A stretch of DNA of 44,119 bases from Candidatus Uhrbacteria bacterium (GCA_013204385.1 JABMNY010000037.1:1-44119), one strand, 5' to 3'; shown: positions 14,600-29,368, counted from the stretch's first letter. Notes: generated from the letters alone by a model not told the origin. A program made the numbers and translations.

Positions 14600-14634
14600 A
14601 AAAAATAGACGAGGCTTACGCCCTGTCTATTTTT
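14600..14634. terminator. Bidirectional rho-independent terminator between convergent genes
   Basis: aaaaaatagac ... gtctatttttt stem with A-run/T-run; overlaps the last codons (KKK-stop) of the minus-strand gene. Confidence 0.85.
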
Positions 14635-15766
14635 TTTTGAGTTGTTCGGCTATGGCTGGAATAAGTTCTTGTTCGACTTGGACAATATTTTTCTTAATAA
14701 TACACAATCGAACTTCTTCTCGTGTCCCTGATGCATTGAACCCCTTACAAAGTTCAATGACATCAATCGGACGTTCTCCTCGGACAATGACACAAACGTT
14801 TCGTTCTGCGTTTTCATACAAAAGTACGACGACTCGTGCCTGAGGAGATGAGGCGATCAGTTCATCAATAACGTCAGGAAGATCTTCTTCTTGTGCCCCT
14901 GCGTGTATAAAGTCTTGGTGCGAGAGAAGTGTCCAAACGATTTTCGCCTCCTCGTCCGCCTTCAAGCGAGCAAGAGCGCGACCCCAGAGTCGCAAGGTTT
15001 GAACGGAACGTGTGCGGTACAGTCGCTGAACGATGTCTTCGCGCCTGGCTCCTTTGGCCATGAGTTTACTTGCTGTTTGTAATGTTTTTGGAGTGACGTT
15101 TTTCGTTTTGAAACTTTTTGTTTTTGCAATCATTCCTGTGAGAAATGCCGTGGCGACCTCTTCATCGATCAGTCCTGGTTCGATTGCCTCAATCAGGTCA
15201 TGACAGACTTCCCCACAGGCACTTGCTGTTAAGTCGACTGCATTGATTTGTCCGTAATGCTCGTTTTCTGGAGCGTGGTCAATGTTGATGACGGGGGTGC
15301 GAAAAAAGAAATCGGGATTCTCTGAATAGAGATGCGCGCAAGACTCGTAGTCAGGGGAACCGATACAGATAATAAGATCGAATCGATAACCACTAGAACT
15401 TGTGCGCACATCTTTCTGGTCCCAAAATCCTTTTTTTGGAGAAAGGTAGACGAAAAGCTTATCTTGTTTGAGTTCGTAGGTCAGGCTGTCAACTTTTGTT
15501 TTTGTTGCATCGAGTTCGATAACGAATTGGCGGAGGTTATCGAGTTTAGTGTGGACCAGGTCATGTCCTGGCAAAAACTGGAGATTGCTTGGGACAGCCC
15601 CATCGGCTGCCACAATCGTTGCGTCCTTCTCTAACTTCTTGAGAACTTTTGCAAGACCGATCGCGGTGGCATAGGCATCAGCTCCACCACCCGAGGGAAC
15701 ACAAATAAGGGGGCGAGTACTTCGCCGAAATGCTTCTAAAATCTGTTGTGACTGCTTAAGGGCCAT
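14627..15766 (-). CDS. DHH-family phosphoesterase-like protein (NrnA/RecJ-like fold) with degenerate catalytic motifs
   Basis: NIDHAPENEHYGQINAVDLTASACGEVCHDLI...ATAFLTGMIAKTKSF resembles the DHH/NrnA family; expected DxD-type motif appears as SGGGADAYATAIGL and DHH as DHA. Confidence 0.72.
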   Translation of the reverse strand: MALKQSQQILEAFRRSTRPLICVPSGGGADAYATAIGLAKVLKKLEKDATIVAADGAVPSNLQFLPGHDLVHTKLDNLRQFVIELDATKTKVDSLTYELKQDKLFVYLSPKKGFWDQKDVRTSSSGYRFDLIICIGSPDYESCAHLYSENPDFFFRTPVINIDHAPENEHYGQINAVDLTASACGEVCHDLIEAIEPGLIDEEVATAFLTGMIAKTKSFKTKNVTPKTLQTASKLMAKGARREDIVQRLYRTRSVQTLRLWGRALARLKADEEAKIVWTLLSHQDFIHAGAQEEDLPDVIDELIASSPQARVVVLLYENAERNVCVIVRGERPIDVIELCKGFNASGTREEVRLCIIKKNIVQVEQELIPAIAEQLKKK

Positions 15767-15785: not shown

Positions 15786-15917
15786 GAGAGACTTCTCTAA
15801 AAAGTGATGGATTTTCGTTGAACGGGCTGCTGAAACGTGAACCCTACTAAAACGTAGGGAGAACGAATTCAGCGGGCGCCCGTGAAACGAAAAGACGCAC
15901 TTTTTAGAGGGGTCTCA
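15786..15917 (-). repeat. Interrupted-palindrome intergenic element, copy A (130-bp family)
   Basis: Reverse complement matches copies B and C: ...AAAAAGTGCGTCTTTTCGTTTCACGGGCGCCCGCTGA...TCTCCCTACGTTTTAGTAGGGTTCACG...CAGCAGCCCGTTCAACGAAAATCCATCACTTTTT... Confidence 0.93.
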
Positions 15918-16000
15918 TTATATGTTACTTATCTTCAACAATCATGGGCAAGGAGCTAACTTACCGTCTTTTTGAGGGGGCGTCAAGGGTTGAATCAAAG

Positions 16001-16026
16001 AAAAACCACCCTTAAAGAAGAGTGGT
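16001..16026 (-). terminator. Rho-independent terminator of the MopE/FG-GAP lipoprotein gene
   Basis: Minus strand: ACCACTCTT-CTTT-AAGGGTGGTTTTT. Confidence 0.75.
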
Positions 16027-16038
16027 ACGTAAACTAGG

Positions 16039-18357
16039 CTAGTAGCCGAGTCCGTTGATGATGAAGGTCGCTCCTTCGTCGCTGGAGCTTGTATCGGCTC
16101 CGTAGGCTCCGACAATCAAGTCTGTACTTGTGTCCGAAGTCAAGGAGGCAGCAGTCAGGCAAAAGCCCAGATGATCTGAGCTCGTTCCACGGAGAATGAA
16201 GTCCGCGGTGGAGAGTGCGATGGTTCCTGGGGTGAGCGGACCGTAGAGGAGGTAGGTTGCTCCAGCATTGGTTCCAGCCGAATCGTTTTCGCTCGCTCCA
16301 ATGACGAGATCCATCGATCCGTCATTATTGAAGTCTCCGGACGCGAGTGCATTTCCGGTTTCTGAGACGGCGGCTTCGCCCGTCAACTTCACATCCGCGT
16401 CAGCAAGACTGATATCAGCAGATAGTGGTCCAAACACGACATACACCGCGCCCGCTCCACTTCCTCCAGAGTCCTCACCAAGTGCACTCACGATGAGATC
16501 CATCGATCCGTCATCGTTGAGATCCTCCACACGGAGTGAGGCTCCAGATCCATCATACGCGGTTTCGCCCGTCAACTTCACATCTGCGTCAGCAAGACTG
16601 ATATCAGCAGACAGTGGTCCGAATACGACATACGCCGCGCCCGAGCTACTTCCTCCCGAGTCCTCACCGGTCGCACCAACGACGAGATCCATGACCCCGT
16701 CGTTACTCAGATCTCCCACGAAGAGGGAAGAGCTCAAGGAGTCCCCCGTTGCTTCACCTGTGATCTTCACATCAGTATCTGCAAGGTCCAAATCTCCAGA
16801 GAGCGGACCGAACACGACATACACCGCGCCCGCTGAACTTCCGCCAGAGTCTTCACTCATGGCTCCAATGACGAGATCCATGACCCCATCATTGTTGAGA
16901 TCCTCTACGAAGAGGGAAGTCCCAAAGACATCCTCAGCTGCTTCGCCCGTGATCTTCACATCAGCATCAGCAAGGCTCAAATCCCCAGAAGCGAGCGGAC
17001 CGAACACGACATACACCGCGCCCGCGCCGTTTCCTCCAGAATCTTCGCCCGTTGCCCCGATGACAAGATCCATGACCCCATCGTCGTTGAGATCCCCTAC
17101 GAAGAGGGAAATTCCAGCTCGATCGTCCGTTGCTTCTCCTGTGAGCTTCATGTTCGCGGAAGAGAGATCAGACGATGAGGAGATGGGTCCAAAGAAGACA
17201 TAGGCAGCTCCTGCATCATTTCCTCCGTCATCGTCGCGCGGGGCTCCGACAACGAGATCTAGGATCCCATCATCATTGAGGTCTCCTGAGGCAAGAGCGG
17301 AGCCAGACTGGTCACTACCAGATTCACCTGTGAGTTCGTAATCTGCGGTACTGCTAGCAACATCGCCCGACAGTTCACATGCGTCGCGCGAGTCGTTACA
17401 GTTGTCATCGATGTCGTTGTTGCAGACTTCGGAGGCGTCTGGATTGACGGCCATGTTGGTGTCATCGCAGTCGTCTGCGAGTTCTACGTACCCTGCCGGA
17501 GGAGCGCAATCGCTCACAGAGTCAGATGCGTCACCGTATCCATCACTGTCCGCGTCGCGGTACCAGGTGAGCTCCACCGTGTCCGTATCAGTTTCTCCGT
17601 TGCAGTTATTGTCGATCTCGTCGTTGCAGATCTCTCTGGCATCAGGATTCACGTTGGTATTGCCGTCGTCGCAGTCCGTACTGTTTTCGACGTACCCTTC
17701 TGGGTTCTCAACACAGGTGTCGAGGATGTTGTCTGCGTCGCCGAAGCCATCCGCATCCACATCTGCGTACCAGGTCAGAGACCCATCCGCATCGTCGACA
17801 ATCCCATTGCAGTCTTGGTCGATGCCATCGTCGCAAATCTCCGTCCCTTCCGGGTTGGAGTTTGCGTCGAGGTCATTGCAGTCGAGATCGTTCTCCACGT
17901 ACCCGTCAGGCTCTGCACACTGCGTGAGGGTTCGATCAGGGTTGCCGTAGGAGTCCGCGTCTGCGTCTGCGTACCAGGTGGGGATGTTCTCGTCGTCCAC
18001 GCCACCGTCACAGTTGTCGTCAATACCGTTGCAGGTTTCCACAGCGTCCGGATTCACGAACTCATTGGTGTCGTTGCAGTCGCCGTTGTGGTCGACGTAG
18101 CCAGCAGGGGCAGAGCAGGCAGATTCTTGTGTCTCACCGCCATACCCGTCTTGGTCCACATCGTTGTACCAAGTCAGGGGACCGTTCACAGAGGAATCGA
18201 TGTCATCGCAGTCAGCTCCTCCACAGTAGCTGGAGGAGCGAGCGTGACCATCGCTGTCAAAGTCACACACAGAAGCCTTCAGATCTTCACTGATGAGGTT
18301 GCAGCCAGTCAGAAAGACCAACAGGAGCAACTTCAGGCTCACTTGGAGTACACGCAT
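16039..18357 (-). CDS. Secreted lipoprotein with MopE-like Cys/Asp-rich putative metal-binding repeats and FG-GAP (integrin-alpha-like) repeats
   Basis: Lipobox LVFLTGC; repeated ..DCDD.N..VNPDA.E.CN.IDDNC.G..D.......WY.DAD.DGYG..; then about 7 GDLNDDGVMDLVIGA repeats. SD AGGAG upstream on the minus strand. Confidence 0.9.
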   Translation of the reverse strand: MRVLQVSLKLLLLVFLTGCNLISEDLKASVCDFDSDGHARSSSYCGGADCDDIDSSVNGPLTWYNDVDQDGYGGETQESACSAPAGYVDHNGDCNDTNEFVNPDAVETCNGIDDNCDGGVDDENIPTWYADADADSYGNPDRTLTQCAEPDGYVENDLDCNDLDANSNPEGTEICDDGIDQDCNGIVDDADGSLTWYADVDADGFGDADNILDTCVENPEGYVENSTDCDDGNTNVNPDAREICNDEIDNNCNGETDTDTVELTWYRDADSDGYGDASDSVSDCAPPAGYVELADDCDDTNMAVNPDASEVCNNDIDDNCNDSRDACELSGDVASSTADYELTGESGSDQSGSALASGDLNDDGILDLVVGAPRDDDGGNDAGAAYVFFGPISSSSDLSSANMKLTGEATDDRAGISLFVGDLNDDGVMDLVIGATGEDSGGNGAGAVYVVFGPLASGDLSLADADVKITGEAAEDVFGTSLFVEDLNNDGVMDLVIGAMSEDSGGSSAGAVYVVFGPLSGDLDLADTDVKITGEATGDSLSSSLFVGDLSNDGVMDLVVGATGEDSGGSSSGAAYVVFGPLSADISLADADVKLTGETAYDGSGASLRVEDLNDDGSMDLIVSALGEDSGGSGAGAVYVVFGPLSADISLADADVKLTGEAAVSETGNALASGDFNNDGSMDLVIGASENDSAGTNAGATYLLYGPLTPGTIALSTADFILRGTSSDHLGFCLTAASLTSDTSTDLIVGAYGADTSSSDEGATFIINGLGY

Positions 18358-18418
18358 GGGATCATCTCCTGTTTAGAGGGAAGGGAATGGAAGTTTGTTT
18401 GAGAAAGAACGATGAGCA

Positions 18419-18447
18419 ATCTTCGCTCAAAATAAGGATTTTGTCAA
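18419..18447 (-). promoter_or_regulatory. Sigma70-like promoter TTGACA-17-GAAGAT for the minus-strand lipoprotein gene
   Basis: + strand TGTCAA at 18442-18447 and ATCTTC at 18419-18424, 17-bp spacer. Confidence 0.5.
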
Positions 18448-18519
18448 TTCTGGTGAGAGGAAGCTTTTCAGGAGAAACAGTTGCAAAATAGCCCGTTTTT
18501 CCCTAAACTACGTTCCGAT

Positions 18520-21192
18520 ATGGCAAAACAAGATATCCCTAAGGCCTACGAAGCCAAAGAATACGAAGATTCTCTCTATTCCGCTTGGGAAAAGAGCGGA
18601 TTTTTTAATCCAGACAATCTGTCAGGTGAACCATTTTCCATCATGATGCCTCCACCAAACGTGACAGGTGTCCTTCATTTAGGACATGCCCTTGAGAATA
18701 CCCTCATGGACAGCATGATTCGCTATCAGCGCATGCGGGGACGTAAAGCCCTCCTGCTTCCTGGAACAGATCATGCGGCGGTGGCAACACAGGCGCGTGT
18801 AGAAAAGAATTTGATGGAGCAGGGAATTGCGAATCCTCGTGAGCACTATGGTCGCGAGAAATTGTTGGAACTCATCCGAGCGTATTCCGAAGAGTCAAAA
18901 GCAACGATTCTTTCTCAGATTAAAAAACTTGGAACCAGTGCAGATTGGTCACGACTTGCGTACACGTTTGATGAACAGCGCTCTCGTGCTGTAAATGAGA
19001 TGTTTGTTCGCATGTATCACGATGGTCTGATCTATCGTGGATATCGTGTGGTGAACTGGTCTGTGAAAGGGCAGTCAACGTGTAGTGATGATGAATTGGT
19101 GTATGTTGATCGAGCTTCTAAGCTTTATACGTTCAAGTATTCAAAAGAACTTCCATTTACGATTGCGACCACACGACCTGAAACAAAGTTAGGAGATACT
19201 GCTATCGCGGTGCATCCAAGTGACGAACGGTACAAACAGTATGTAGGTCAGGTGTTTGATGTGGAGTTTGGGGGGAATCAGTTGAAACTTCACGTGATTG
19301 AAGATGAGCACGTTGATCCAACATTTGGAACAGGAGCATTGGGTGTAACGCCGGCTCATAGTCCTATCGATTTTGAAATGTACGAGCGACAGAAAGCGCT
19401 TGGAAATGATATCGGGTTGATTCAGGTTGTGGGGGTAGATGGACTCATGACTCAAGTTGCAGGAACGGCTTACGTAGGAAAAACGGTGGAGGAGGCGAGA
19501 GAATTGGTTGTTGCAATGTTACGTGAAAAAAATCTTTTGGTGAGTGAAGAAGAGATTGAGCAGAGTGTGGGAACATCAGACCGGTTTGGAGACATTGTTG
19601 AAGCAATCCCAATGACGCAATGGTTTGTTGCGGTAAATAAAGAAATTCCAGGACGTGGCAAGACACTTAAGGAACTCATGAAAGAAGCCGTTGCGGTCGG
19701 ACATAACGGGGATAGAGATCAAAAAGTTGAAATTACTCCAGAACGATTTGAGAACAGTTACTATCAATGGATCGATAACCTTCGGGACTGGTGTATTTCT
19801 CGCCAGATCTGGTGGGGACACCGTATTCCGGTTTGGTACAAGGGAGCGGAGGTCTTTTGTGGGGAACATCCTCCAGAGGTGCAGGGATGGACACAAGACG
19901 CCGACACGCTTGATACGTGGTTTAGTTCAGGAACATGGACGTTCTCGACACTCGGTTGGCCCGATACGGATACAGATTTTGAAACATTTCACCCAACAAG
20001 CTGGATGCAGATGGGATATGAGATTTTGTTTTTTTGGATGGCCCGTATGATTCTCATGAGTACCTATGCACTTGATCAAATTCCGTTTAAGCAGGTGTAC
20101 ATCCATGGAATGTTACGTGATAAAAACGGACAGAAGTTTTCAAAGTCTCTTGGAAACGGAATCGATCCTCTCGATGTGATTGAAGCGTATAGTGCAGATG
20201 CCTTGCGTTACAGTCTTGTTACTGGAGTGACACCCGGAAACGATTCTCGTTTTTACGAAGAGAAGGTTGAAGCGGCTCAGCGACTCGTGAATAAACTTTG
20301 GAATATTTCTCGGTTTATTTTAACGAGTGTCGAGACGATTGAACACGGAAAAGCCTTTAAAGAACTTACTCCAACGACGCTTGCAGATCGATGGATTCTT
20401 TCACGACTCGTGCGTTTAGAAGAAGAAGTTTCAGAACACATGCAGACGGCTGATTTTTCCCAAGCAAGTGAGAAACTTCGTGAGTTTACCTGGAATGATT
20501 TTGCTGACTGGTATCTTGAGGCATCGAAGTCCCAACGGAGTGACGAATCAACAAAGACATCAACGGATGCGATCCTTGTGTATGTGTTAGAACATCTTTT
20601 GACGTACTGGCATCCAATCATGCCCTTTGTCACCGAGCAGATTTGGTCTTATTTTGTTGATGAAGAATTGTTGATGGCACACGCCTGGCCTGTGATGCGC
20701 ATGATTGATTTGGATCTGGATGCCGAAAAAGAGATGGTACAGCTACAAGCACTCATTGGAGCTATTCGAACGATTCGTTCAGAAAATAATGTTGCACCAA
20801 AACAAAAGGTGAATGTTGTTATTATTGGGGGGGTTGTTTTGAATGAAGATGAGGAGAGATCAAAGTTTATCAAAGCGTTGGCGGGAGTTAATGATTTAAA
20901 TTCTGCGGATGTATTGGGTGATACAATTAATGTTGCATCTACAGTTGTTGGAAGTATGCAAGTTTGTGTCTCGCTTGAAGGATTGGTTGATAAGGAAGCG
21001 GAGCAGGTAAAGCTTTCCAAGCAGTATGAAGAGACGCTTGTTTACATTAAGAGCCTCGAGGGGAAACTTGCCAATGAGACGTTTGTTTCTAAGGCTCCTG
21101 AACACGTTGTCGCGGGAATGAAACAAAATCTTGCGGATGCTCAGAAAAAGGCTTTGACGATTAATGAACAATTAACCTCCATGGGTCTATGA
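18520..21192 (+). CDS. valS: Valyl-tRNA synthetase
   Basis: PPPNVTGVLHLGHALENTLMD (HIGH), KNGQKFSKSLGNGIDP (KMSKS-like), C-terminal coiled coil. ATG at 18520 preferred over the TTG at 18481. Confidence 0.97.
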   Translation: MAKQDIPKAYEAKEYEDSLYSAWEKSGFFNPDNLSGEPFSIMMPPPNVTGVLHLGHALENTLMDSMIRYQRMRGRKALLLPGTDHAAVATQARVEKNLMEQGIANPREHYGREKLLELIRAYSEESKATILSQIKKLGTSADWSRLAYTFDEQRSRAVNEMFVRMYHDGLIYRGYRVVNWSVKGQSTCSDDELVYVDRASKLYTFKYSKELPFTIATTRPETKLGDTAIAVHPSDERYKQYVGQVFDVEFGGNQLKLHVIEDEHVDPTFGTGALGVTPAHSPIDFEMYERQKALGNDIGLIQVVGVDGLMTQVAGTAYVGKTVEEARELVVAMLREKNLLVSEEEIEQSVGTSDRFGDIVEAIPMTQWFVAVNKEIPGRGKTLKELMKEAVAVGHNGDRDQKVEITPERFENSYYQWIDNLRDWCISRQIWWGHRIPVWYKGAEVFCGEHPPEVQGWTQDADTLDTWFSSGTWTFSTLGWPDTDTDFETFHPTSWMQMGYEILFFWMARMILMSTYALDQIPFKQVYIHGMLRDKNGQKFSKSLGNGIDPLDVIEAYSADALRYSLVTGVTPGNDSRFYEEKVEAAQRLVNKLWNISRFILTSVETIEHGKAFKELTPTTLADRWILSRLVRLEEEVSEHMQTADFSQASEKLREFTWNDFADWYLEASKSQRSDESTKTSTDAILVYVLEHLLTYWHPIMPFVTEQIWSYFVDEELLMAHAWPVMRMIDLDLDAEKEMVQLQALIGAIRTIRSENNVAPKQKVNVVIIGGVVLNEDEERSKFIKALAGVNDLNSADVLGDTINVASTVVGSMQVCVSLEGLVDKEAEQVKLSKQYEETLVYIKSLEGKLANETFVSKAPEHVVAGMKQNLADAQKKALTINEQLTSMGL

Positions 21193-22229
21193 GTGTTCCT
21201 TCAGTGAATCAGTTTCTTTTTGCTGGAGTCATTCTTGTTGTTGCATGGGGGCTTTCGACGGTTGTTGTTGAGGTGTTGAAACGTTCAAGATTTTTAACAA
21301 CAAAAACGAAGACAACAATTGACGATGAAGTACTCCGTCTTATGCGACGGCCGTTACATCTAGGGTTTCAATTAATAGGGATCTTCATTTCTGCACAATA
21401 TTTGTTTCCAGATCTTTCGTATAAAGAATATGGATATAGTGACTTAATGCCGGTTCTTTTGATTATTTGGATTGCATATCTCGCAAATCGACTCATTCGA
21501 GGTCTCATGAATTGGAAAGAAGATGAGACTCAGAAAGAGCAGGGGGGTGGAATTCGACGTGGAACGTTTGGGTTTTTAAACACGATTATCAGTCTTCTTG
21601 TTTGGGGTGTTGCGTTCACATTCATGTTGAATCAACTTGGGGTGGATGTGACGGCGCTTATTGCAGGACTCGGAATTGCTGGTATTGCCGTTGCTCTTGC
21701 GCTTCAAAATACATTGTCTGGATTATTCTCTGCAATTGGACTTGCGCTTGATCGTCCAATCAGACAAGGAGATTATATTCGCCTTGAAGATGGAATCGAA
21801 GGTTTCGTTGAAGATATTTCTATGCGTTCGACTCGGATACGTACGTTTGAAAATACTCTGGTGATTGTTCCAAATGGAAAGTTAACGGAGATGATTCTTA
21901 CGAATATGTTTCTTCCTGGACAGGAAACAATTCTGAAGATTCCACTCGGTGTAAGTTATTCTGCTGATCTCGAACTTGTGGAAACAGTCATTATTGAAGT
22001 GGCAAAAGAAATACTGGCAAATCATGATTCCATAGGGTCGAAAGATCCATTCGTTCGCTTTCAGGCATTTGGAGATTCTGCGATCGAACTTAAAGTATTC
22101 TTAACCATCAAGCAGTTTCTGGATCAATATATGATTAAGCATGACTTTATCAAAGCACTTCATATACGCTTTAACGAAGAAGGGATTGAAATTCCATTTC
22201 CTCAAATGCGTGTTCATTTGAAAAAATAG
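21189..22229 (+). CDS. MscS-family mechanosensitive ion channel
   Basis: VTALIAGLGIAGIAVALALQNTLSGLFSAIGLALDRPIRQGDYIRLEDGIEGFVEDISMRSTRIRTFENTLVIVPNGKL; ATGA overlap with valS. Confidence 0.95.
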   Translation: MSVPSVNQFLFAGVILVVAWGLSTVVVEVLKRSRFLTTKTKTTIDDEVLRLMRRPLHLGFQLIGIFISAQYLFPDLSYKEYGYSDLMPVLLIIWIAYLANRLIRGLMNWKEDETQKEQGGGIRRGTFGFLNTIISLLVWGVAFTFMLNQLGVDVTALIAGLGIAGIAVALALQNTLSGLFSAIGLALDRPIRQGDYIRLEDGIEGFVEDISMRSTRIRTFENTLVIVPNGKLTEMILTNMFLPGQETILKIPLGVSYSADLELVETVIIEVAKEILANHDSIGSKDPFVRFQAFGDSAIELKVFLTIKQFLDQYMIKHDFIKALHIRFNEEGIEIPFPQMRVHLKK

Positions 22230-22231
22230 AT

Positions 22232-23938
22232 ATGTACGCAATTCAAGACGCAAAGACACAGGTGATACAAGCAATTAAGCAGGCAGCTCCAAAAGGGTTT
22301 GTGCCTGTTCTTGAAGATCTCGAAACACCTCCTGATGCACAACTCGGAGATGTGGCCTTTCCGTGTTTTACGCTCGCCAAGAAACTGAAACGGAATCCAC
22401 ATGAGATTGCCGTTGAACTTGCGGCATCCATTGGACCAAAGGGATTCATTGGGGAGGTGAAAGCCGTTGGGCCTTATGTGAATGTCACGTATGACACCCA
22501 GATGTTTGGGGAAGCGGTGATGAAAGAGATGCAAGAGTTAGGTGATGAATATGGGACCTCTGATGTAGGGGAGGATAAACGGATCATGGTGGAATTCGCG
22601 AATCTCAACTCACATAAAGATGTGCATATTGGGCATCTAAGGAATTTATTTGTGGGACAGGCTGTTGTGAACATGCTTAAAGCAACAGGGTACGATGTCG
22701 TGCCCGTTGCGTATATCAATGATCTTGGGCTGCATGTCGCAAAGTCTGTTTGGTGCATGAAGAAGTATCATGAAGGAGAGGAGGTTGCAGAGGAAGATCA
22801 AATCGCTTTTTTACGTGACGTCTATGTTGAAGCAAATAAAAAACTTGAAGAGCAACCCGCGTTAAGTGCGCAGGTTTCAGATGTGTTTCATTATCTTGAG
22901 GATGGTCGTGGGGACGAAGTGGCCTTATGGAAAGAAACACGAAGTTGGTCCATTGATTACTTGAAGGAAGTGTATACTGAGCTTGGACTCACACTCAGTC
23001 ATTGGTATTTTGAGAGTGAGGTGATTGGAAAAACAAAGAAAATTATTGAAGAGTTGATCACTAAGGGGATTGTAAAAGAGTCTCAAGGAGCTTGGATTGT
23101 GGATTTAGAGGAGCAAAAATTGGGAGTAAATTTGCTCATTAAATCCGATGGGAGACTGTTGTACAATGCAAAAGATCTCGGACTCGCATTAAAAAAAGAA
23201 GAAGATTATCATCCAACGCGTTCCATTTATGTCGTGGATGAGAGACAATCTCATGCGCTCCAGCAATTATTTGCAACCTTAAAACTCATGGGGTTTGAGC
23301 GAGAGTTACAACATTTATCGTATGAGTTCGTCACGCTTGAGGGGGGAGCTATGGCCGCACGCACAGGGAATGTGATTCGGTACGAGGATCTTCGAGATGA
23401 ATTACTCAAAGAAGCTCGTCAAGAAACGCTCGCACGTCACGCAGATTGGTCAAAAAAGAAAATCGAAAAAGTTGCACAGGCGGTTGCGTTCTCTGCGATG
23501 CGATTTGGAATGCTCAAGCAGGATACAGGTAAGAAAATCGTATTCAATCTTCAAGAGGCGCTGTCATTTGAGGGGTATACTGGTCCATATCTTCTGTACA
23601 CGCATGCGCGTATTCAGAGTTTGAAAAAGAAGGCAGGCAGAAAAAAACCAACCTGGACAGCAAAAACACTCTCAGCACAAAGCGAACATCAATTGATTCT
23701 TGCTCTTGCTCAGTACCCAGAAGTGTTGTTTGAGACCGCCCAGAAACTTCAACCCGCCATGCTCTCTCAATATCTATTTCATCTTGCAAAAACGTTCTCT
23801 GAGTTCTATGCAAGTATCCCCATACTTGCGCAGGAAGGGGCTGGGCTTTCTGAACGACTTGCTTTAGTACGTTGTGTAGGAAGTGTTCTTCATCATGGTC
23901 TGACTGTTCTCGGGATTGAGACTGTTGATGAAATGTAG
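22232..23938 (+). CDS. argS: Arginyl-tRNA synthetase
   Basis: VEFANLNSHKDVHIGHLRNLFVGQAVVNMLKATGYDV; YVVDERQSHALQQLFATLKLMGF; C-terminal DALR-like anticodon-binding region. Confidence 0.97.
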   Translation: MYAIQDAKTQVIQAIKQAAPKGFVPVLEDLETPPDAQLGDVAFPCFTLAKKLKRNPHEIAVELAASIGPKGFIGEVKAVGPYVNVTYDTQMFGEAVMKEMQELGDEYGTSDVGEDKRIMVEFANLNSHKDVHIGHLRNLFVGQAVVNMLKATGYDVVPVAYINDLGLHVAKSVWCMKKYHEGEEVAEEDQIAFLRDVYVEANKKLEEQPALSAQVSDVFHYLEDGRGDEVALWKETRSWSIDYLKEVYTELGLTLSHWYFESEVIGKTKKIIEELITKGIVKESQGAWIVDLEEQKLGVNLLIKSDGRLLYNAKDLGLALKKEEDYHPTRSIYVVDERQSHALQQLFATLKLMGFERELQHLSYEFVTLEGGAMAARTGNVIRYEDLRDELLKEARQETLARHADWSKKKIEKVAQAVAFSAMRFGMLKQDTGKKIVFNLQEALSFEGYTGPYLLYTHARIQSLKKKAGRKKPTWTAKTLSAQSEHQLILALAQYPEVLFETAQKLQPAMLSQYLFHLAKTFSEFYASIPILAQEGAGLSERLALVRCVGSVLHHGLTVLGIETVDEM

Positions 23939-23941
23939 ATA

Positions 23942-24069
23942 AAGATCTCTGGAAAAGCGCGTCTTTTCGTTTCACGGGCGCCCGCTGATCCCGTTCTCCC
24001 TACGTTTGAGTAGGGTTCACGGTCTCAGCAGCCCGTTCAACGAAAATCCATCACTTTTTCAGAGATCTT
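23942..24069 (+). repeat. Interrupted-palindrome intergenic element, copy B (130-bp family)
   Basis: Termini AAGATCTCTG...CAGAGATCTT are perfectly inverted; core matches copies A and C. Confidence 0.95.
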
Positions 24070-24078
24070 ATAAATAAG

Positions 24079-24106
24079 TTGACCAGGAGGGCCTAACTGA
24101 TAAGAT
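24079..24106 (+). promoter_or_regulatory. Sigma70-like promoter TTGACC-16-TAAGAT upstream of bactofilin
   Basis: Hexamers at 24079-24084 and 24101-24106, ATG at 24122; the promoter lies downstream of repeat copy B. Confidence 0.45.
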
Positions 24107-24121
24107 CCAAAGAAATCATCT

Positions 24122-24523
24122 ATGTTTAAGGATAAAAGTAAGAATGCTATGCCAAGTTCATCAAGTAATGAAACAATCATTGCTCAGGGAGTTCGTGTTG
24201 AGGGGGATTTTCAGTCACAGGGAGATGTTGTAATCGACGGAGAGGTTGTTGGTTCTGTTGTGACACAAAGCTCTCTTCATGTAGGAGAATCTGCAAAAAT
24301 TCATGCAGATGTGAAGGCAGCAAATGCGGTGATTGCGGGAGAAATCATCGGAAACGTCGTTGTAGGAGAAATGCTGGAACTGCTTTCTACGTCTCATGTA
24401 CAAGGCGATATTACAACGGAGCGAATTTCCGTAGCCGCTGGTGCTCGTATTAACGGACAAATTCGTATGGAAAGTAAGCAGAAAGGATCATCTGTCCAAG
24501 CCAAAGACGAGGATACAAAATAG
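24122..24523 (+). CDS. Bactofilin-family polymer-forming protein
   Basis: TIIAQGVRVEGDFQSQGDVVIDGEVVGSVVTQSSLHVGESAKIHADVKAANAVIAGEIIGNV, beta-helical bactofilin repeats. Confidence 0.93.
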   Translation: MFKDKSKNAMPSSSSNETIIAQGVRVEGDFQSQGDVVIDGEVVGSVVTQSSLHVGESAKIHADVKAANAVIAGEIIGNVVVGEMLELLSTSHVQGDITTERISVAAGARINGQIRMESKQKGSSVQAKDEDTK

Positions 24524-24528
24524 TCTGT

Positions 24529-25266
24529 ATGTATTGCTATCTCTATGATGAATACATTCAGGAGAACAAGCGGTTTGAACGAGAACTTTTAAAAATAGAG
24601 AATCGTTTAACGGACCTTGGGATCGCAGGAAAGGTATCTCGCCTTGCCTTGTTTCGAAATGCCGAGGAAATGATTCGAGATGAAATTGATCACGGTGTCT
24701 CGACGATTGTTGTTGTCGGAAATGATGAGACGGTCAGAAAAGTCATCGATGTCGTTGCAGATAATGATGTCGTATTGGGGATCATTCCAATTGGTCCTGG
24801 AAATGAACTTGCGCGCATGATGGGAGTTCCAGAGGGAGTTGAGGCGTGTGAGGTTCTTTCAGCACGTCGTGTTGAGAAGATTGATGTGGGAACCGTAAAT
24901 GGTCGTCGCTTTATCACGGGAGTAACCATGCCTAATTTTCGTGCAGAGATTACCTGTGAAGATAAGTTCCGTGTGACCTCTGTTGCGCGTCAGGCTGCAC
25001 TTGAGATTCGAAATCTGACAGACTTAACGGATCCACGTGATGGTCAATTTGAGGCGGTGATCAGTGCGGCAGTGAAAACAGGGTGGGGAATCTTTGGAAA
25101 GACACAAATAAAGGAAAGCATCCTTCCACTTTCTTCTATGGCGATTCGTAGTGAATTGCCAATATCCTTGTTTGTTGATGGAGAAGAGATGAAATCAACA
25201 CGATTTGATATCGGAATCGAACCACTGCTTTTGAAGGTCATTACTGGAAAGACAAGAGTATTTTAG
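24529..25266 (+). CDS. Diacylglycerol kinase catalytic-domain-like protein
   Basis: TIVVVGNDETVRKVIDVVADNDVVLGIIPIGPGNELARMMGVP resembles the GGDGT...P.GTGNDFAR signature. Confidence 0.78.
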   Translation: MYCYLYDEYIQENKRFERELLKIENRLTDLGIAGKVSRLALFRNAEEMIRDEIDHGVSTIVVVGNDETVRKVIDVVADNDVVLGIIPIGPGNELARMMGVPEGVEACEVLSARRVEKIDVGTVNGRRFITGVTMPNFRAEITCEDKFRVTSVARQAALEIRNLTDLTDPRDGQFEAVISAAVKTGWGIFGKTQIKESILPLSSMAIRSELPISLFVDGEEMKSTRFDIGIEPLLLKVITGKTRVF

Positions 25267-25324
25267 CGGAAGGATTGATCTTTTTTTCTGGATCTTGTAT
25301 GATCCTCACGGAAAAAAGGGACAC

Positions 25325-25411
25325 GCGCGGGTGGTGAAATTGGTATACACGCCAGCTTGAGGGGCTGGTGGTCGCAAGACCGTGGAGGTTCAAGTCCTCT
25401 CTCGCGCACCA
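25325..25411 (+). tRNA. tRNA-Leu(GAG), CCA encoded
   Basis: GCGCGGG...CTCGCGC acceptor; anticodon arm CCAGC-TTGAGGG-GCTGG; long variable arm (class II); 3' ACCA. Confidence 0.95.
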
Positions 25412-25455
25412 CAAAAAACAGGCTCATTGAGCGTGTTTTTTGTTTGTGTAGAGAA

Positions 25456-25484
25456 TTGACGAGAATCGTCCTTTTGATTACCCT
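25456..25484 (+). promoter_or_regulatory. Sigma70-like promoter TTGACG-17-TACCCT
   Basis: Hexamers at 25456-25461 and 25479-25484; downstream SD GGAGGTG and ATG at 25514. Confidence 0.45.
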
Positions 25485-25513
25485 GGCTCAGGCACATACA
25501 CGGAGGTGCATTC

Positions 25514-25939
25514 ATGGGCGATCTCGCAGGACTCATTCGAGCGGTTGACCACGTCGGTTTCCCCTCACATCATGACGACTGGATTGAGATCCAGGCTTTT
25601 TGGGAAAGTCTGGAAATGACATGTTCGATCAAAGAGATTGAGGATGAGGACTACGATCACGCGGGGAAGGGTCCTCGACTCCAAGTGTTCTCTGGAGCTC
25701 AACTTCTGGTCTCCTACTTCATCACGAATCTCCCGGCTGGAAGCATTCGGCGAAGCATGCGCTCGCAACATCTCGGATTGACCATGTGTCCCCCCGCACT
25801 CGACGCAGTACGTACGCATCCCAACTTCGATCGAGAGACCCCTTGGGGAATGAGCAATACCAGCATCTTCTTGCGTGGTCCCTACGGACTTCATGTCGAA
25901 CTCGTCACGACCGATCCCGGCTACCACGCCGACGCCTAG
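25514..25939 (+). CDS. VOC/glyoxalase-fold-like small protein
   Basis: AVDHVGFPSHHDDWIEIQAFWESLEM...SQHLGLTM...SIFLRGPYGLHVELVTTDPG; strong SD cggaggtgcattcATG. Confidence 0.62.
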   Translation: MGDLAGLIRAVDHVGFPSHHDDWIEIQAFWESLEMTCSIKEIEDEDYDHAGKGPRLQVFSGAQLLVSYFITNLPAGSIRRSMRSQHLGLTMCPPALDAVRTHPNFDRETPWGMSNTSIFLRGPYGLHVELVTTDPGYHADA

Positions 25940-25960
25940 CGCAATCTTGCGCTTTTTCTT
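25937..25960 (+). terminator. Rho-independent terminator after VOC-like gene
   Basis: AGCGCAA-tc-TTGCGCTTTTTC. Confidence 0.75.
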
Positions 25961-25989
25961 TTTGATAAGATTCTGTAGGGTGAAGAGGT

Positions 25990-27759
25990 ATGAAACTAAA
26001 ATTTCTTTCGTTTGCTTCAATTTTTGAGGGATTAAAACGCGTTATAGTGCGGTTTCCAATCACGATTGCGTTGTGTGTTGTGGGAACTTGCATTGGTATT
26101 GCATTAATCCATGATGAGAACAATCCAACCTATCTACGTCTGCTCATCACATTAGTACTTACGGTACCTTTATCCGTCGTCGTGACACTCTTTATCGAGG
26201 CGATGGGGTGGAGAAAAGAATGGTCTTGGTTTGGAGTGTTAGCGTTAATTGCTCTTATGTCGGGTTACTATACGTTCCTTCCTGAGATAGATTCACCCGA
26301 GGCTTTTACGTTTTATCTGCGACATGGAATGTGGGTTGCTGGATCTGTTCTGGCGGTAACGTTCATCCTTTTTGTGCGAGAGTCTGGTGTTCAGGCAGTA
26401 TTGCGATTTTGGGAATATGGTCGACGACTTCTATTTTCAACATTTTTAACATGGTTCTGGTCGCTCGCAATTCAATTTGGAATTTTTGCCGCATTGTTTG
26501 CAACGGATATGCTATTTGATTTAGAAATTCCGTCTGAGAGATATACTGAAATATGGGCCGTTATTCTTGGTCTCTTTGCCACAACATTCTTTCTCAGTCG
26601 ACTTCCTCGAAGCTCAGATGATTTGGAAAAAGCTTCATATCCGAAAGAGGTTCGATTATTTTCTCAGTTCGTTTTGGTTCCTTTGGTGCTGGTGTATTTT
26701 GTCATTCTCTATACGTACACAGCAAAGATTCTTTTCACAGGTGAGTGGCCACAGGGTCAACTTGCGTACATCATTCTTGGGTTTTCTGTGGTGGGATTAT
26801 TGACATACATTGCCCTCTATCCACTCCGCACACAGGTGAGCTGGATTCGCCATGCTGGGACGGCTTTGTGTATTGCCATGATCCCTCAAGCATTTATGCT
26901 TTTTTGGTCGCTTTGGTTTCGCGTTTCAGACTATGGAGTGACAGAGAATCGCTATTTTGTCTTCATTTTTGGTCTTTGGTTGATTGGTGTGAGTCTGTAT
27001 TTTCTTGTGAGTCGAGTAAAAGACCTCCGTTTGATTCCTGTGAGTGTAGTCCTCATTATTTTTGTGACATCCGTTGGTCCATGGGGCGCATTTTCAACAG
27101 CAATTCGTTCACAGGTGGGAAGACTTGAATCGATTCTGGAACAGAATGGTCGTTTTGAAGACGGGAAATATGTCGCCTCAGAGATTGAACTTTCAGATGA
27201 AGATATTTCTCAAGTAAGTGCTGTTTTAAATTTTCTTGAAGAGCGAAACGCGTTTAACTCCGTGCAAGTATGGTTAGATGAGAAGGTTGATTTTGCGGAA
27301 ATAAAAGACCGGAAGAGGGGTGAGTACTTTATGCAAGAAGGGTTTAAACTCTCTTACTCTACGCATGTTCCATCCTATACAAGGAGAATTAGTTGGGGAA
27401 GTTACAGAAGCGAGCTTGGAACAGTTGTGGGAGGGTATGAGTATGCATTTGCCTTCGAATCTAGAGGATCGACAACCCAAAGATTTAGAGTGGAAGGAAA
27501 AGATTTTTCAATCACATTGAATGATGGGTCGCAAGAAATAGAAATATCTCTAGACGGAAAGTTGCTCGGGTCCATTTCATTACGTGAGATTCTTCAGCAA
27601 GAAGCGGATGGAAGATTGAGCGATGAACAGCCTACTGTCCATGTTGAATCTGATCAATTTGAGAGTCTGTATGTCCTTGGTTCATTTTCTGCACGTGAAG
27701 AAGATGGAGAGATCAGTCTTAGTTCAACCACAGGAATGATTCTCTTGACCCTTAAGTAG
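25990..27759 (+). CDS. Polytopic membrane protein, DUF4153-like
   Basis: At least 10 hydrophobic segments; overall pattern resembles DUF4153 family proteins (LYPLRTQVSWIRHAGTALCIAMIPQAFMLFWSLWFRVSDYGVTENRYFV). Confidence 0.75.
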   Translation: MKLKFLSFASIFEGLKRVIVRFPITIALCVVGTCIGIALIHDENNPTYLRLLITLVLTVPLSVVVTLFIEAMGWRKEWSWFGVLALIALMSGYYTFLPEIDSPEAFTFYLRHGMWVAGSVLAVTFILFVRESGVQAVLRFWEYGRRLLFSTFLTWFWSLAIQFGIFAALFATDMLFDLEIPSERYTEIWAVILGLFATTFFLSRLPRSSDDLEKASYPKEVRLFSQFVLVPLVLVYFVILYTYTAKILFTGEWPQGQLAYIILGFSVVGLLTYIALYPLRTQVSWIRHAGTALCIAMIPQAFMLFWSLWFRVSDYGVTENRYFVFIFGLWLIGVSLYFLVSRVKDLRLIPVSVVLIIFVTSVGPWGAFSTAIRSQVGRLESILEQNGRFEDGKYVASEIELSDEDISQVSAVLNFLEERNAFNSVQVWLDEKVDFAEIKDRKRGEYFMQEGFKLSYSTHVPSYTRRISWGSYRSELGTVVGGYEYAFAFESRGSTTQRFRVEGKDFSITLNDGSQEIEISLDGKLLGSISLREILQQEADGRLSDEQPTVHVESDQFESLYVLGSFSAREEDGEISLSSTTGMILLTLK

Positions 27760-27773
27760 GCAGAGGAGGGTAC

Positions 27774-27805
27774 AAAAAACACCAGGAAAATCCTGGTGTT
27801 TTTTG
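27774..27805. terminator. Rho-independent terminator (near-perfect, probably bidirectional)
   Basis: aaaaaacaccagga-aaa-tcctggtgtttttt. Confidence 0.93.
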
Positions 27806-27880
27806 GTGGGCGTTGAGGGGCTCGAACCCCCGGCCTTCTCGGTGTAAACGAGACGCTCTAACCAACTGAGCTAAACGCCC
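27804..27880 (-). tRNA. tRNA-Val(TAC), CCA encoded
   Basis: Minus strand GGGCGTTTAGCTCAGTTGGTTAGAGCGTCTCGTTTACACCGAGAAGGCCGGGGGTTCGAGCCCCTCAACGCCCACCA; anticodon loop TTTACAC. Confidence 0.96.
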
Positions 27881-27894
27881 TTATGAAGTAACCA

Positions 27895-27964
27895 ATCCCG
27901 ACGCTCCACAAAGTGGAGGTCGGGACCCCGACACCGTAGGTCGTCGGGGCTGAGCTAAACGCCC
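27895..27964. repeat. Two tandem GC-rich hairpins plus 15-bp copy of the tRNA-Val 5' end
   Basis: CCCGAC-g-CTCCAC-aaa-GTGGAG-GTCGGG, then CCCCGAC-ACC-gta-GGT-c-GTCGGGG, then ctgagctaaacgccc (27950-27964), identical to 27866-27880 inside the tRNA. Confidence 0.9.
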
Positions 27965-28048
27965 ATAACCATCCAAAAGATGGATGCCTGCAAATGCTAT
28001 CGAATTTTGTATGTCTTGGCAAGTGTTGTGTGATAAACTGAAAGAACT

Positions 28049-28300
28049 ATGTCTCCATTCATTCGAATACCGCTTGGGTTTGCCATTATGGTTGTAGGTT
28101 TTCTCATGGTGAAAAATACAAACGTAGTCATCTCCTGGTTTGGTCGCGTTCCGTTTGCTGAGGATAAATTTGGTTCTGGAGGATCCATTTTTTTCTACAA
28201 ACTCTTAGGGGTTTTTGTCTCTTTTCTAGGAATAGCGATCGCCACGAATGTTATTTCTGGAATTCTTGAGGACCTTGCTGGACTTCTTACCCATTCTTAA
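28049..28300 (+). CDS. Small hypothetical membrane protein (two TM)
   Basis: 83 aa, IPLGFAIMVVGFLMV and LLGVFVSFLGIAIATNVI hydrophobic segments. Confidence 0.72.
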   Translation: MSPFIRIPLGFAIMVVGFLMVKNTNVVISWFGRVPFAEDKFGSGGSIFFYKLLGVFVSFLGIAIATNVISGILEDLAGLLTHS

Positions 28301-28384
28301 TTCCCATTTTTGAGCAGTGTCGCTTGATTTGCATGAGGGTCTTTGCTATGGTTTGCGCAAATTCCTCTCATTTCATTTTATTGT

Positions 28385-28810
28385 ATGTCATCACTCTTTC
28401 TTCCGTCCTATTGGTTAACCATGAGTGCTCCTGAAGTCGATGGACTTATTGGGACGATTATCCTTGTCTTGTTTGTTGTGCTGTTTGTTCTCGGAATCGT
28501 TGGTCGTATTGTTGCTTCTCGAAAAGAGGAAGATCGATATAAGCGGGAAGTGGGGAATCGTATCTCGACACTTCTTGTGACGATGGGCTTTTTAGGAATT
28601 GTTCTTTTCTTTTTCAGTTTCGAACAGATTGAGCTTTTTGGAGCGAGGTTTTGGTATCCTACGTGGGTGATCGGTATGCTTGTATGGGTTCATTTCATTG
28701 TGCGCTATGTAAGACGAGATATCCCTGCAAAGAAAATGCGCTCTCAGCTCTTAAAGGAAAAAGCAAAGTATCTTCCAAAAGCTAAACAGAAAAAGAAACG
28801 TCGACGCTAG
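28385..28810 (+). CDS. Hypothetical membrane protein with basic C-terminus
   Basis: Three to four hydrophobic segments; KQKKKRRR tail; start may be 28385 or 28421 rather than 28343. Confidence 0.68.
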   Translation: MSSLFLPSYWLTMSAPEVDGLIGTIILVLFVVLFVLGIVGRIVASRKEEDRYKREVGNRISTLLVTMGFLGIVLFFFSFEQIELFGARFWYPTWVIGMLVWVHFIVRYVRRDIPAKKMRSQLLKEKAKYLPKAKQKKKRRR

Positions 28811-28811
28811 T

Positions 28812-29183
28812 ATGGATGCAAGGAGGAAGTTTGGAAATTTTGGAGAGAAACTCGCTGCAAACTTTTTGGTCTCACAGGGATTCATTTTGAGAGAGGTGCA
28901 GTATCGACAATCATTTGGAGAAATCGACCTTATTTGCCAAGATGGTGATGAGGTCGTTTTTGTTGAGGTGAAAACACGAAACAGTCAGGCTTCTGGCTAC
29001 CCAGAGGAATCCGTGACAGAAAAAAAGATTCAACATCTGATACGAGTTGCAGAACACTATCTTCTCTCTCATCGTCTTACAGAATCTGCGTGGCGGATTG
29101 ATGTGGTGGCAATTGAGTGCCACGCTAAACCACCTCTCATTACACATTTTAAAAACATTGACATTCCTGAGATTCTTTGGTAG
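28812..29183 (+). CDS. YraN/UPF0102-family putative endonuclease
   Basis: GNFGEKLAANFLVSQGFILREVQYRQSFGEIDLICQDGDEVVFVEVKTRNS, restriction-like GE(I/L)DLI..D...VFVEVK motif. Confidence 0.93.
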   Translation: MDARRKFGNFGEKLAANFLVSQGFILREVQYRQSFGEIDLICQDGDEVVFVEVKTRNSQASGYPEESVTEKKIQHLIRVAEHYLLSHRLTESAWRIDVVAIECHAKPPLITHFKNIDIPEILW

Positions 29184-29224
29184 CGTTGAGGAGCTGAACC
29201 TGTCGATTGACGGGTTCATTTGTT

Positions 29225-29358
29225 AATAGAGACCTCAGCAAAAGTGCGTCTTTTCGTCTCACAGGCGCCCGCTGATCCAGTTCTCCCTACGTTTGAGTAG
29301 GGTTCACAGTCTCAGCAGCCCGTTCAACGAAAATCCATCACTTTTTCAGAAGTCTCAA
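29225..29358 (+). repeat. Interrupted-palindrome intergenic element, copy C (130-bp family)
   Basis: GAGACCTCAGCAAAAGTG...CACTTTTTCAGAAGTCTC imperfect outer stem; core nearly identical to copy B. Confidence 0.95.
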
Positions 29359-29368
29359 TAGAATATCT

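Follow-up and report, generated by a model that had tools for sequence, protein, structure and literature searches.

A mobile 128-bp palindrome of Candidatus Uhrbacteria, probably a miniature inverted-repeat transposable element with exchangeable ends around a folded core

Introduction

What kind of sequence occurs three times, as a long interrupted palindrome, in the intergenic gaps of a single contig, and is it DNA that moves or RNA that folds? The question is raised by a stretch of 44,119 nucleotides from a Candidatus Uhrbacteria bacterium (GCA_013204385.1 JABMNY010000037.1:1-44119), referred to below, at its full length, as the window. An earlier note on this sequence had described the three copies, each of about 130 bp, and had offered either a structured RNA or a non-autonomous palindromic mobile element as their nature. 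The mobile element is upheld by several lines of evidence (sites that are empty in relatives, duplicated targets, copies with internal deletions, and insertion sequences (ISs) with matching ends), whereas the structured RNA is only partly indicated, by covarying stems, frozen loops and a bias of orientation. The best explanation, and a probable one, is that the element is a type II miniature inverted-repeat transposable element (MITE) of about 128 bp that resembles ERIC in form, has exchangeable ends as well as a structured core, and may have a role at the RNA level.

The element and its family

A covariance model built from 40 copies places copy 1 at 15789-15915 on the minus strand (117.2 bits), copy 2 at 23942-24069 on the plus strand (125.7 bits) and copy 3 at 29229-29356 on the plus strand (114.5 bits). 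The three copies claimed earlier are thus confirmed, with ends a few bases inside those first given. All are about 128 bp long and are nearly full-length interrupted palindromes, with a GC content of 0.47-0.51 and, with copy 2 as the BLAST reference, an identity of 93% for copies 1 and 3. The shared architecture is as had been described, except that copy 2 has AAAAGCG in place of AAAAGTG, and the loop of the apical hairpin CCCTAC-GTTTNA-GTAGGG is GTTTTA in copy 1 and GTTTGA in copies 2 and 3. Copy 1 lies 22 nt upstream of a gene at 14627-15766 (minus strand). Copy 2 begins 3 nt past the stop codon of argS, 52 nt ahead of a bactofilin-like gene at 24122-24523, and copy 3 ends 12 nt ahead of the start codon of nusA.

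Further copies, for which a search had been suggested, are present in the same genome (1.05 Mb) and in its relatives. In the former, BLAST finds 11 places (best E 2e-62), of which 4 are short or have internal deletions, while 13 are recovered with the covariance model; this recurrence greatly exceeds chance. Within one GTDB family (Candidatus Uhrbacteria), 33 of the 43 genomes also have matches to the model, with 5 to 66 copies per genome within one genus, the highest count being that of a single congener. In a sample of 380 genomes of the phylum, in which few candidates per genome were scored and weak relatives could be missed, two matching genomes fall within that family and one weak match lies elsewhere. 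Similarly, an exact-pattern scan of named genomes returned mostly Candidatus Uhrbacteria contigs. An apparent occurrence in Lentisphaerae (L107, MHBF01000116.1, filed as Lentisphaerae bacterium GWF2_44_16) was rejected; the contig is most likely misbinned, because it is colinear with Uhrbacteria over several kilobases at 76-84% identity.

Members of the family are 125-130 bp long, lie between called genes and have no coding capacity. The internally deleted derivatives in the genome of the window are found at C1:20131-20167, C14:5625 and C37:5016, and the first of these is a palindrome of 37 bp that retains little beyond both ends. As had been supposed, no known RNA family accounts for the element: an Rfam scan of the window gave nothing but two tRNAs at gathering score, and a scan at relaxed E-value around six copies gave no credible match. 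No match to it was found in phage, plasmid and viral-contig searches.

Insertion and target duplication

It was observed that each of the three sites is vacant in a relative. The closest congener (G002) has no element at the site of copy 1, where no clear duplication is seen. Both the argS-bactofilin gap, which holds copy 2, and the nusA leader, which holds copy 3, are without the element in G002 and in three further genomes (G003, G004 and G005), the argS-bactofilin gap most cleanly in G002. The nusA leader reads GTTAATTGAATATCTATG in G002 and GTTAATA, 128 bp of element and AATAGAATATCTATG in the window, which amounts to a 4-bp duplication (AATA at 29225-29228 and 29357-29360). Around copy 2, a putative duplication (ATA at 23939-23941 and 24070-24072) is of ambiguous length, 3-5 bp, because of an A run. 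In G003, the same argS-bactofilin gap (L161) holds a different palindromic insertion (CCACTTTAGTGG .. GGGGCTAAAGCCCC).

Exact direct repeats of 4-5 bp stand at both borders in 18 of 45 copies that have recognisable GAGAC-type ends; when the right borders are shuffled, chance yields a mean of 1.1 and a maximum of 6 in 2000 permutations. One insertion position is common to two species, G004 and G001 (L179/L202), with homologous flanks on both sides. What inserts is the element as a whole, with a short target duplication on either side. Its MITE-like mobility is well supported, since the empty sites and duplications are joined by internally deleted copies and by ISs with matching ends.

Ends and partner transposons

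The ends of 104 examined copies were sorted into classes. Class I, GAGA(C/T)CT(C/T)TGCAAAACTC, is carried by 60 copies; class II, (G)CTGTGAAT(G/T)ACGAAACTC, by 9; class III, GAGACTGTT or GGG(A/G)CTGTC, by 11; and the remaining 24 were placed as other. Copy 3 is of class I, with the left terminal arm GAGACCTCAGCAAAA at 29229-29243 (plus strand) and the right arm GAGACTTCTGAAAAA, read inward, at 29342-29356 (minus strand). Class II elements differ from class I in having direct repeats of about 7 bp (CTCAATG, AAGTATA, CTTGTGGA), seen in few copies and in some cases one or two bases off the model end.

Two ISs of G003 emerged from a search of the genus for DDE_Tnp_1 transposases. The first encodes an IS5-type transposase (NF033581, 185 bits, cut-off 140); its end, GAGACCTCTGCAAAACTC, lies about 100 bp ahead of the transposase start and is identical to an element end over 18 bp. 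A second IS5-type gene, in G014, has the end GAGACCGTTGAAAAACTC, which is base for base the arm of an element copy (L229). The other IS of G003 encodes an IS982-like transposase, whose best match, NF033520 at 111 bits, is below the cut-off of 130. It carries AGCTGTGAATTACGAAA(C/T)TCC at both ends. IS982-like genes with the end CTGTGAATTACGAAA occur in four genomes, and the end GCTGTGAATTACGAAA also stands beside those of G027, G023 and G026. In G027, both ends of the IS are present, with an 8-bp duplication, CTAGTAAG, on both sides; the element end CTGTGAATTACGAAACTC is a close match to these IS982-like ends. The similarity to the element is confined to the ends, as it breaks off after AAACTC in both ISs. 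Of the PF01609 matches in the genus, seven in all, just two (L098 and L099) have clear element-type ends; L096 has a weak class II-like match.

The same core of about 100 bp is found with either kind of end, and the length of the duplication follows the class of the end, being 4-5 bp for class I and about 7-8 bp for class II. From these ends and duplication lengths, it would appear that IS5-type and IS982-like transposases act on the element in trans. One copy, at L201:3652-3809, is a hybrid when its sequence is read directly: the left arm is of class I, while the right arm, GCTGTGAGTTACAAAACTC read inward, is two mismatches from class II. This copy is taken here as a probable case of end switching.

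A conserved fold

The structure was taken from the consensus of a 40-copy alignment made by sequence. In it, both sides vary with pairing preserved in 25 of 34 pairs, paired cells over the copies amount to 95.1% compared with 74.5% in shuffles, and the covariation score is 0.536 compared with 0.152. Shifting the partner one to three columns lowers pairing to 24-50% and the score to at most 0.098, a control that leans towards the structure because the structure was itself derived from the alignment consensus. In a wider set of 82 non-redundant copies from several genera, the stems take up to four Watson-Crick types. The internal loops, on the other hand, are strand-specific and nearly invariant, and T31, C40, A111 and T112 do not change at all in that alignment. 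Through compensatory changes, core and arms together keep the form of a single long hairpin with interruptions.

Self-correction of the palindrome was considered as a source of the covariation and is thought unlikely, as it should erase mismatched internal loops, and these hold some of the most conserved bases. Compensatory change in the arms is expected for any pair of transposon ends, but in the inner stems it is not; there, it offers the best hint that selection may act on the folded strand. Smaller palindromes (CCCGCCCGAACGAACGTTCGACGGTCGGGCGGG and others) are nested in several copies (L199:2545, L201:3739, L069, L086, L091, L092 and other copies of G004 and G001), all at one common internal-loop region, CTCGAC|AGCCCG, or GCGCCCG|TCGAC on the other arm.

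Placement and orientation

The contexts of copies were taken from stretches around the matches listed in the genomes, with codon-scored gene calls made in this analysis. In the sense orientation, 38 copies start between -12 and +30 nt from an upstream stop codon on the same strand, and 8 are reversed in the equivalent place (p = 9e-6); in tight co-directional gaps, 20 are sense and 4 reversed. Because the copies derive from several genomes, with a few positions in common, these counts are not fully independent. As both ends look the same, orientation cannot be fixed by them alone; selection after insertion, or internal sequence, must do so.

Another group of 16 copies ends 1-8 nt from the 5' end of a tRNA gene, and all 16 are antisense, with the left end towards the tRNA. 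The genes concerned encode tRNAs for Lys, Leu, Arg, Cys, Val, Pro, Ser, Ile and His, and the copies are L192:2493, L170:962, L169:2303, L194:2536, L207:2537, L196:932, L195:2447, L221:2472, L182:2482, L190:1903, L231:2425, L198:2485, L211:962, L212:2445, L201:2385 and L201:3652. Other apical forms occur in 15 of the 16, and the outer arms are mostly not of class I. At the three tRNA-Lys copies, TTGCAA-N17-TATATT lies on the far side of the element. A promoter shared by copies other than the tRNA-linked ones was rejected, the signal being suggestive only at these tRNA-Lys genes and weak overall; at the tRNA copies it reaches 9.1, compared with 8.7 in shuffles.

A proposed mechanism

These observations may be joined as follows. 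IS5-type or IS982-like transposases would move the element in trans, and its ends would be swapped by recombination between copies or with ISs; it is proposed that the family thereby outlives any single transposase. Inserted copies would be co-transcribed as hairpins of 3' untranslated regions (3'-UTRs), intercistronic gaps or tRNA leaders. Selection on the transcript, for its processing, its stability or for not blocking a neighbour, would then preserve the fold and filter the orientation, in line with earlier proposals on ERIC and Correia/NEMIS. Fold and orientation are the grounds for suggesting such an effect on the transcript.

Several points weigh against this explanation. A profile search of the genome of the window gave no PF01609 or PF05598 transposase match, and the partner genes are scarce (6 of 43 genomes have IS982-like hits, 4 of 43 have DUF772 hits) while the element is common, so that mobilisation in trans is put forward as a proposal. 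The IS5-type IS of G003 runs into the contig end, and just one of its ends is visible, with no duplication. For many copies, above all the tRNA-linked ones, no IS with matching outer arms was found and no duplication can be seen. The ends are all that a plain MITE requires, and transposition leaves the strong constraint on the core unexplained. Further, orientation favours the mRNA sense at stop codons and is antisense at tRNA genes, and no single RNA rule fits both.

Alternative explanations

The element may primarily be a functional structured RNA (a 3'-UTR or intercistronic element, or a pre-tRNA leader) spread by transposition, the folded core being the selected unit and the transposon ends the vehicle. 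This is quite possible, though it is not the reading favoured here. Stems that covary and loop bases that are frozen across many genera speak for it, as do the orientation biases (38:8 at stop codons and 16:0 at tRNA 5' ends) and the one position kept in two species; the tRNA-Lys motif beyond the element also suggests that the latter lies inside a transcribed leader. However, no position looks required, because copy number ranges so widely in one genus and the window sites are empty in relatives, and, taken overall, promoter signals at the tRNA copies barely exceed those of shuffles. A more specific proposal would make the folded core a mobile structured-RNA module, a sense hairpin in 3'-UTRs and intercistronic gaps and an antisense one in pre-tRNA leaders, persisting across the genera of the family by repeatedly capturing active transposon ends; this is put forward tentatively and appears rather doubtful.

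It is improbable that the element is a mobile palindrome of single-stranded DNA (HUH/Y1, RAYT/REP-like) whose hairpin serves as transposase substrate. A long imperfect hairpin with frozen, strand-specific mismatches does resemble a Y1-type substrate (REP/RAYT, PMC3733652), but duplications of 4-5 and about 7-8 bp and ends of ISs with DDE transposases are not expected of Y1 elements. Intrinsic terminators or attenuators duplicated beside genes, which the stable hairpins past stop codons might recall, are a very unlikely explanation: no such site, with a GC hairpin and a T run immediately behind it, is predicted inside the three copies, separate terminator-like hairpins stand beside copies 1 and 3, and many copies lie in tight co-directional gaps and ahead of tRNA genes, where termination would silence the next gene. 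The earlier remark that the element is not just a terminator is thereby supported.

Integron attC sites are long imperfect palindromes with conserved extrahelical bases, which follow stop codons in one orientation and have a core of the type RYYYAAC/GTTRRRY. The element resembles them in size, position at stop codons, orientation and extrahelical bases, but an attC-like site is scarcely credible, as the target duplications and the empty sites point to a sequence that inserts whole, copies lie among ordinary core genes (argS, nusA), and the ends lack the attC-type core and match IS ends instead.

Other features of the window

Upstream of the tRNA gene at 27807-27880 (minus strand), an unrelated GC-rich double palindrome (CCCCGACGACCTACGGTGTCGGGG, CCCGACCTCCACTTTGTGGAGCGTCGGG) occupies 27881-28000. 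At 16231-17150, five tandem repeats with a spacing of about 189 bp lie in a gene for a large secreted-type protein (16039-18357, minus strand).

Comparison with known systems

The explanation as a type II MITE can be set against systems already described. Type II MITEs are 50-500 bp long, share similarity with ISs only at their ends, are flanked by direct repeats, lie between genes and form a stable stem-loop (PMC10969869). The element is like them in each of these respects: its length lies within that range, its terminal inverted repeats are shared with ISs and similarity is restricted to them, and duplications as well as empty sites are found. It departs from the usual type in not being AT-rich, in its structurally constrained core, in favouring stop codons and the 5' ends of tRNA genes with fixed orientation, and in that one core bears the ends of two transposase families with duplication lengths to match. 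Together with the hybrid copy, the latter makes a concrete case of end switching, by which a non-autonomous element could persist after its transposase is gone. Given the strict covariation and the fixed orientation at tRNA 5' ends, it can also be tested whether these are parasites, tolerated when in a given orientation, or have become RNA processing elements in hosts with very small genomes. In the open-access literature, no paper on MITEs in these bacteria was found.

The REP/BIME sequences are extragenic palindromes, often downstream of coding regions and in many cases plausibly transcribed, which depend on a tyrosine transposase (PMC3733652). REPs are 20-40 bp long and carry a GTAG tag, whereas the element is about 128 bp long, has no GTAG-tagged end, and has IS-type ends and target duplications. 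The Correia/NEMIS elements of Neisseria, intergenic MITEs of 107-155 bp with terminal inverted repeats (TIRs), have been proposed to form RNA hairpins that are cleaved by RNase III (PMC2229807). The element is likewise a small intergenic MITE with TIRs, but its sequence and host are different, and end switching is undescribed for Correia/NEMIS in the cited literature.

ERIC (also IRU or RU-1) is an intergenic imperfect palindrome of about 127 bp, co-transcribed in the cases studied, and a MITE with target duplication, for which an orientation-dependent effect on mRNA has been proposed (PMC2229807). In length, palindromic form, intergenic placement and mobility with target duplication, the element is like it. 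In sequence it is not, as blastn with words of 11 gave no match to the element in an E. coli genome collection. ERIC has a 7-bp TIR with TA at the ends (PMC2229807), while the element has IS-type ends of 15-18 bp, in several classes, around a core with invariant loops. By analogy of form and placement, it would seem to work most like ERIC and Correia/NEMIS.

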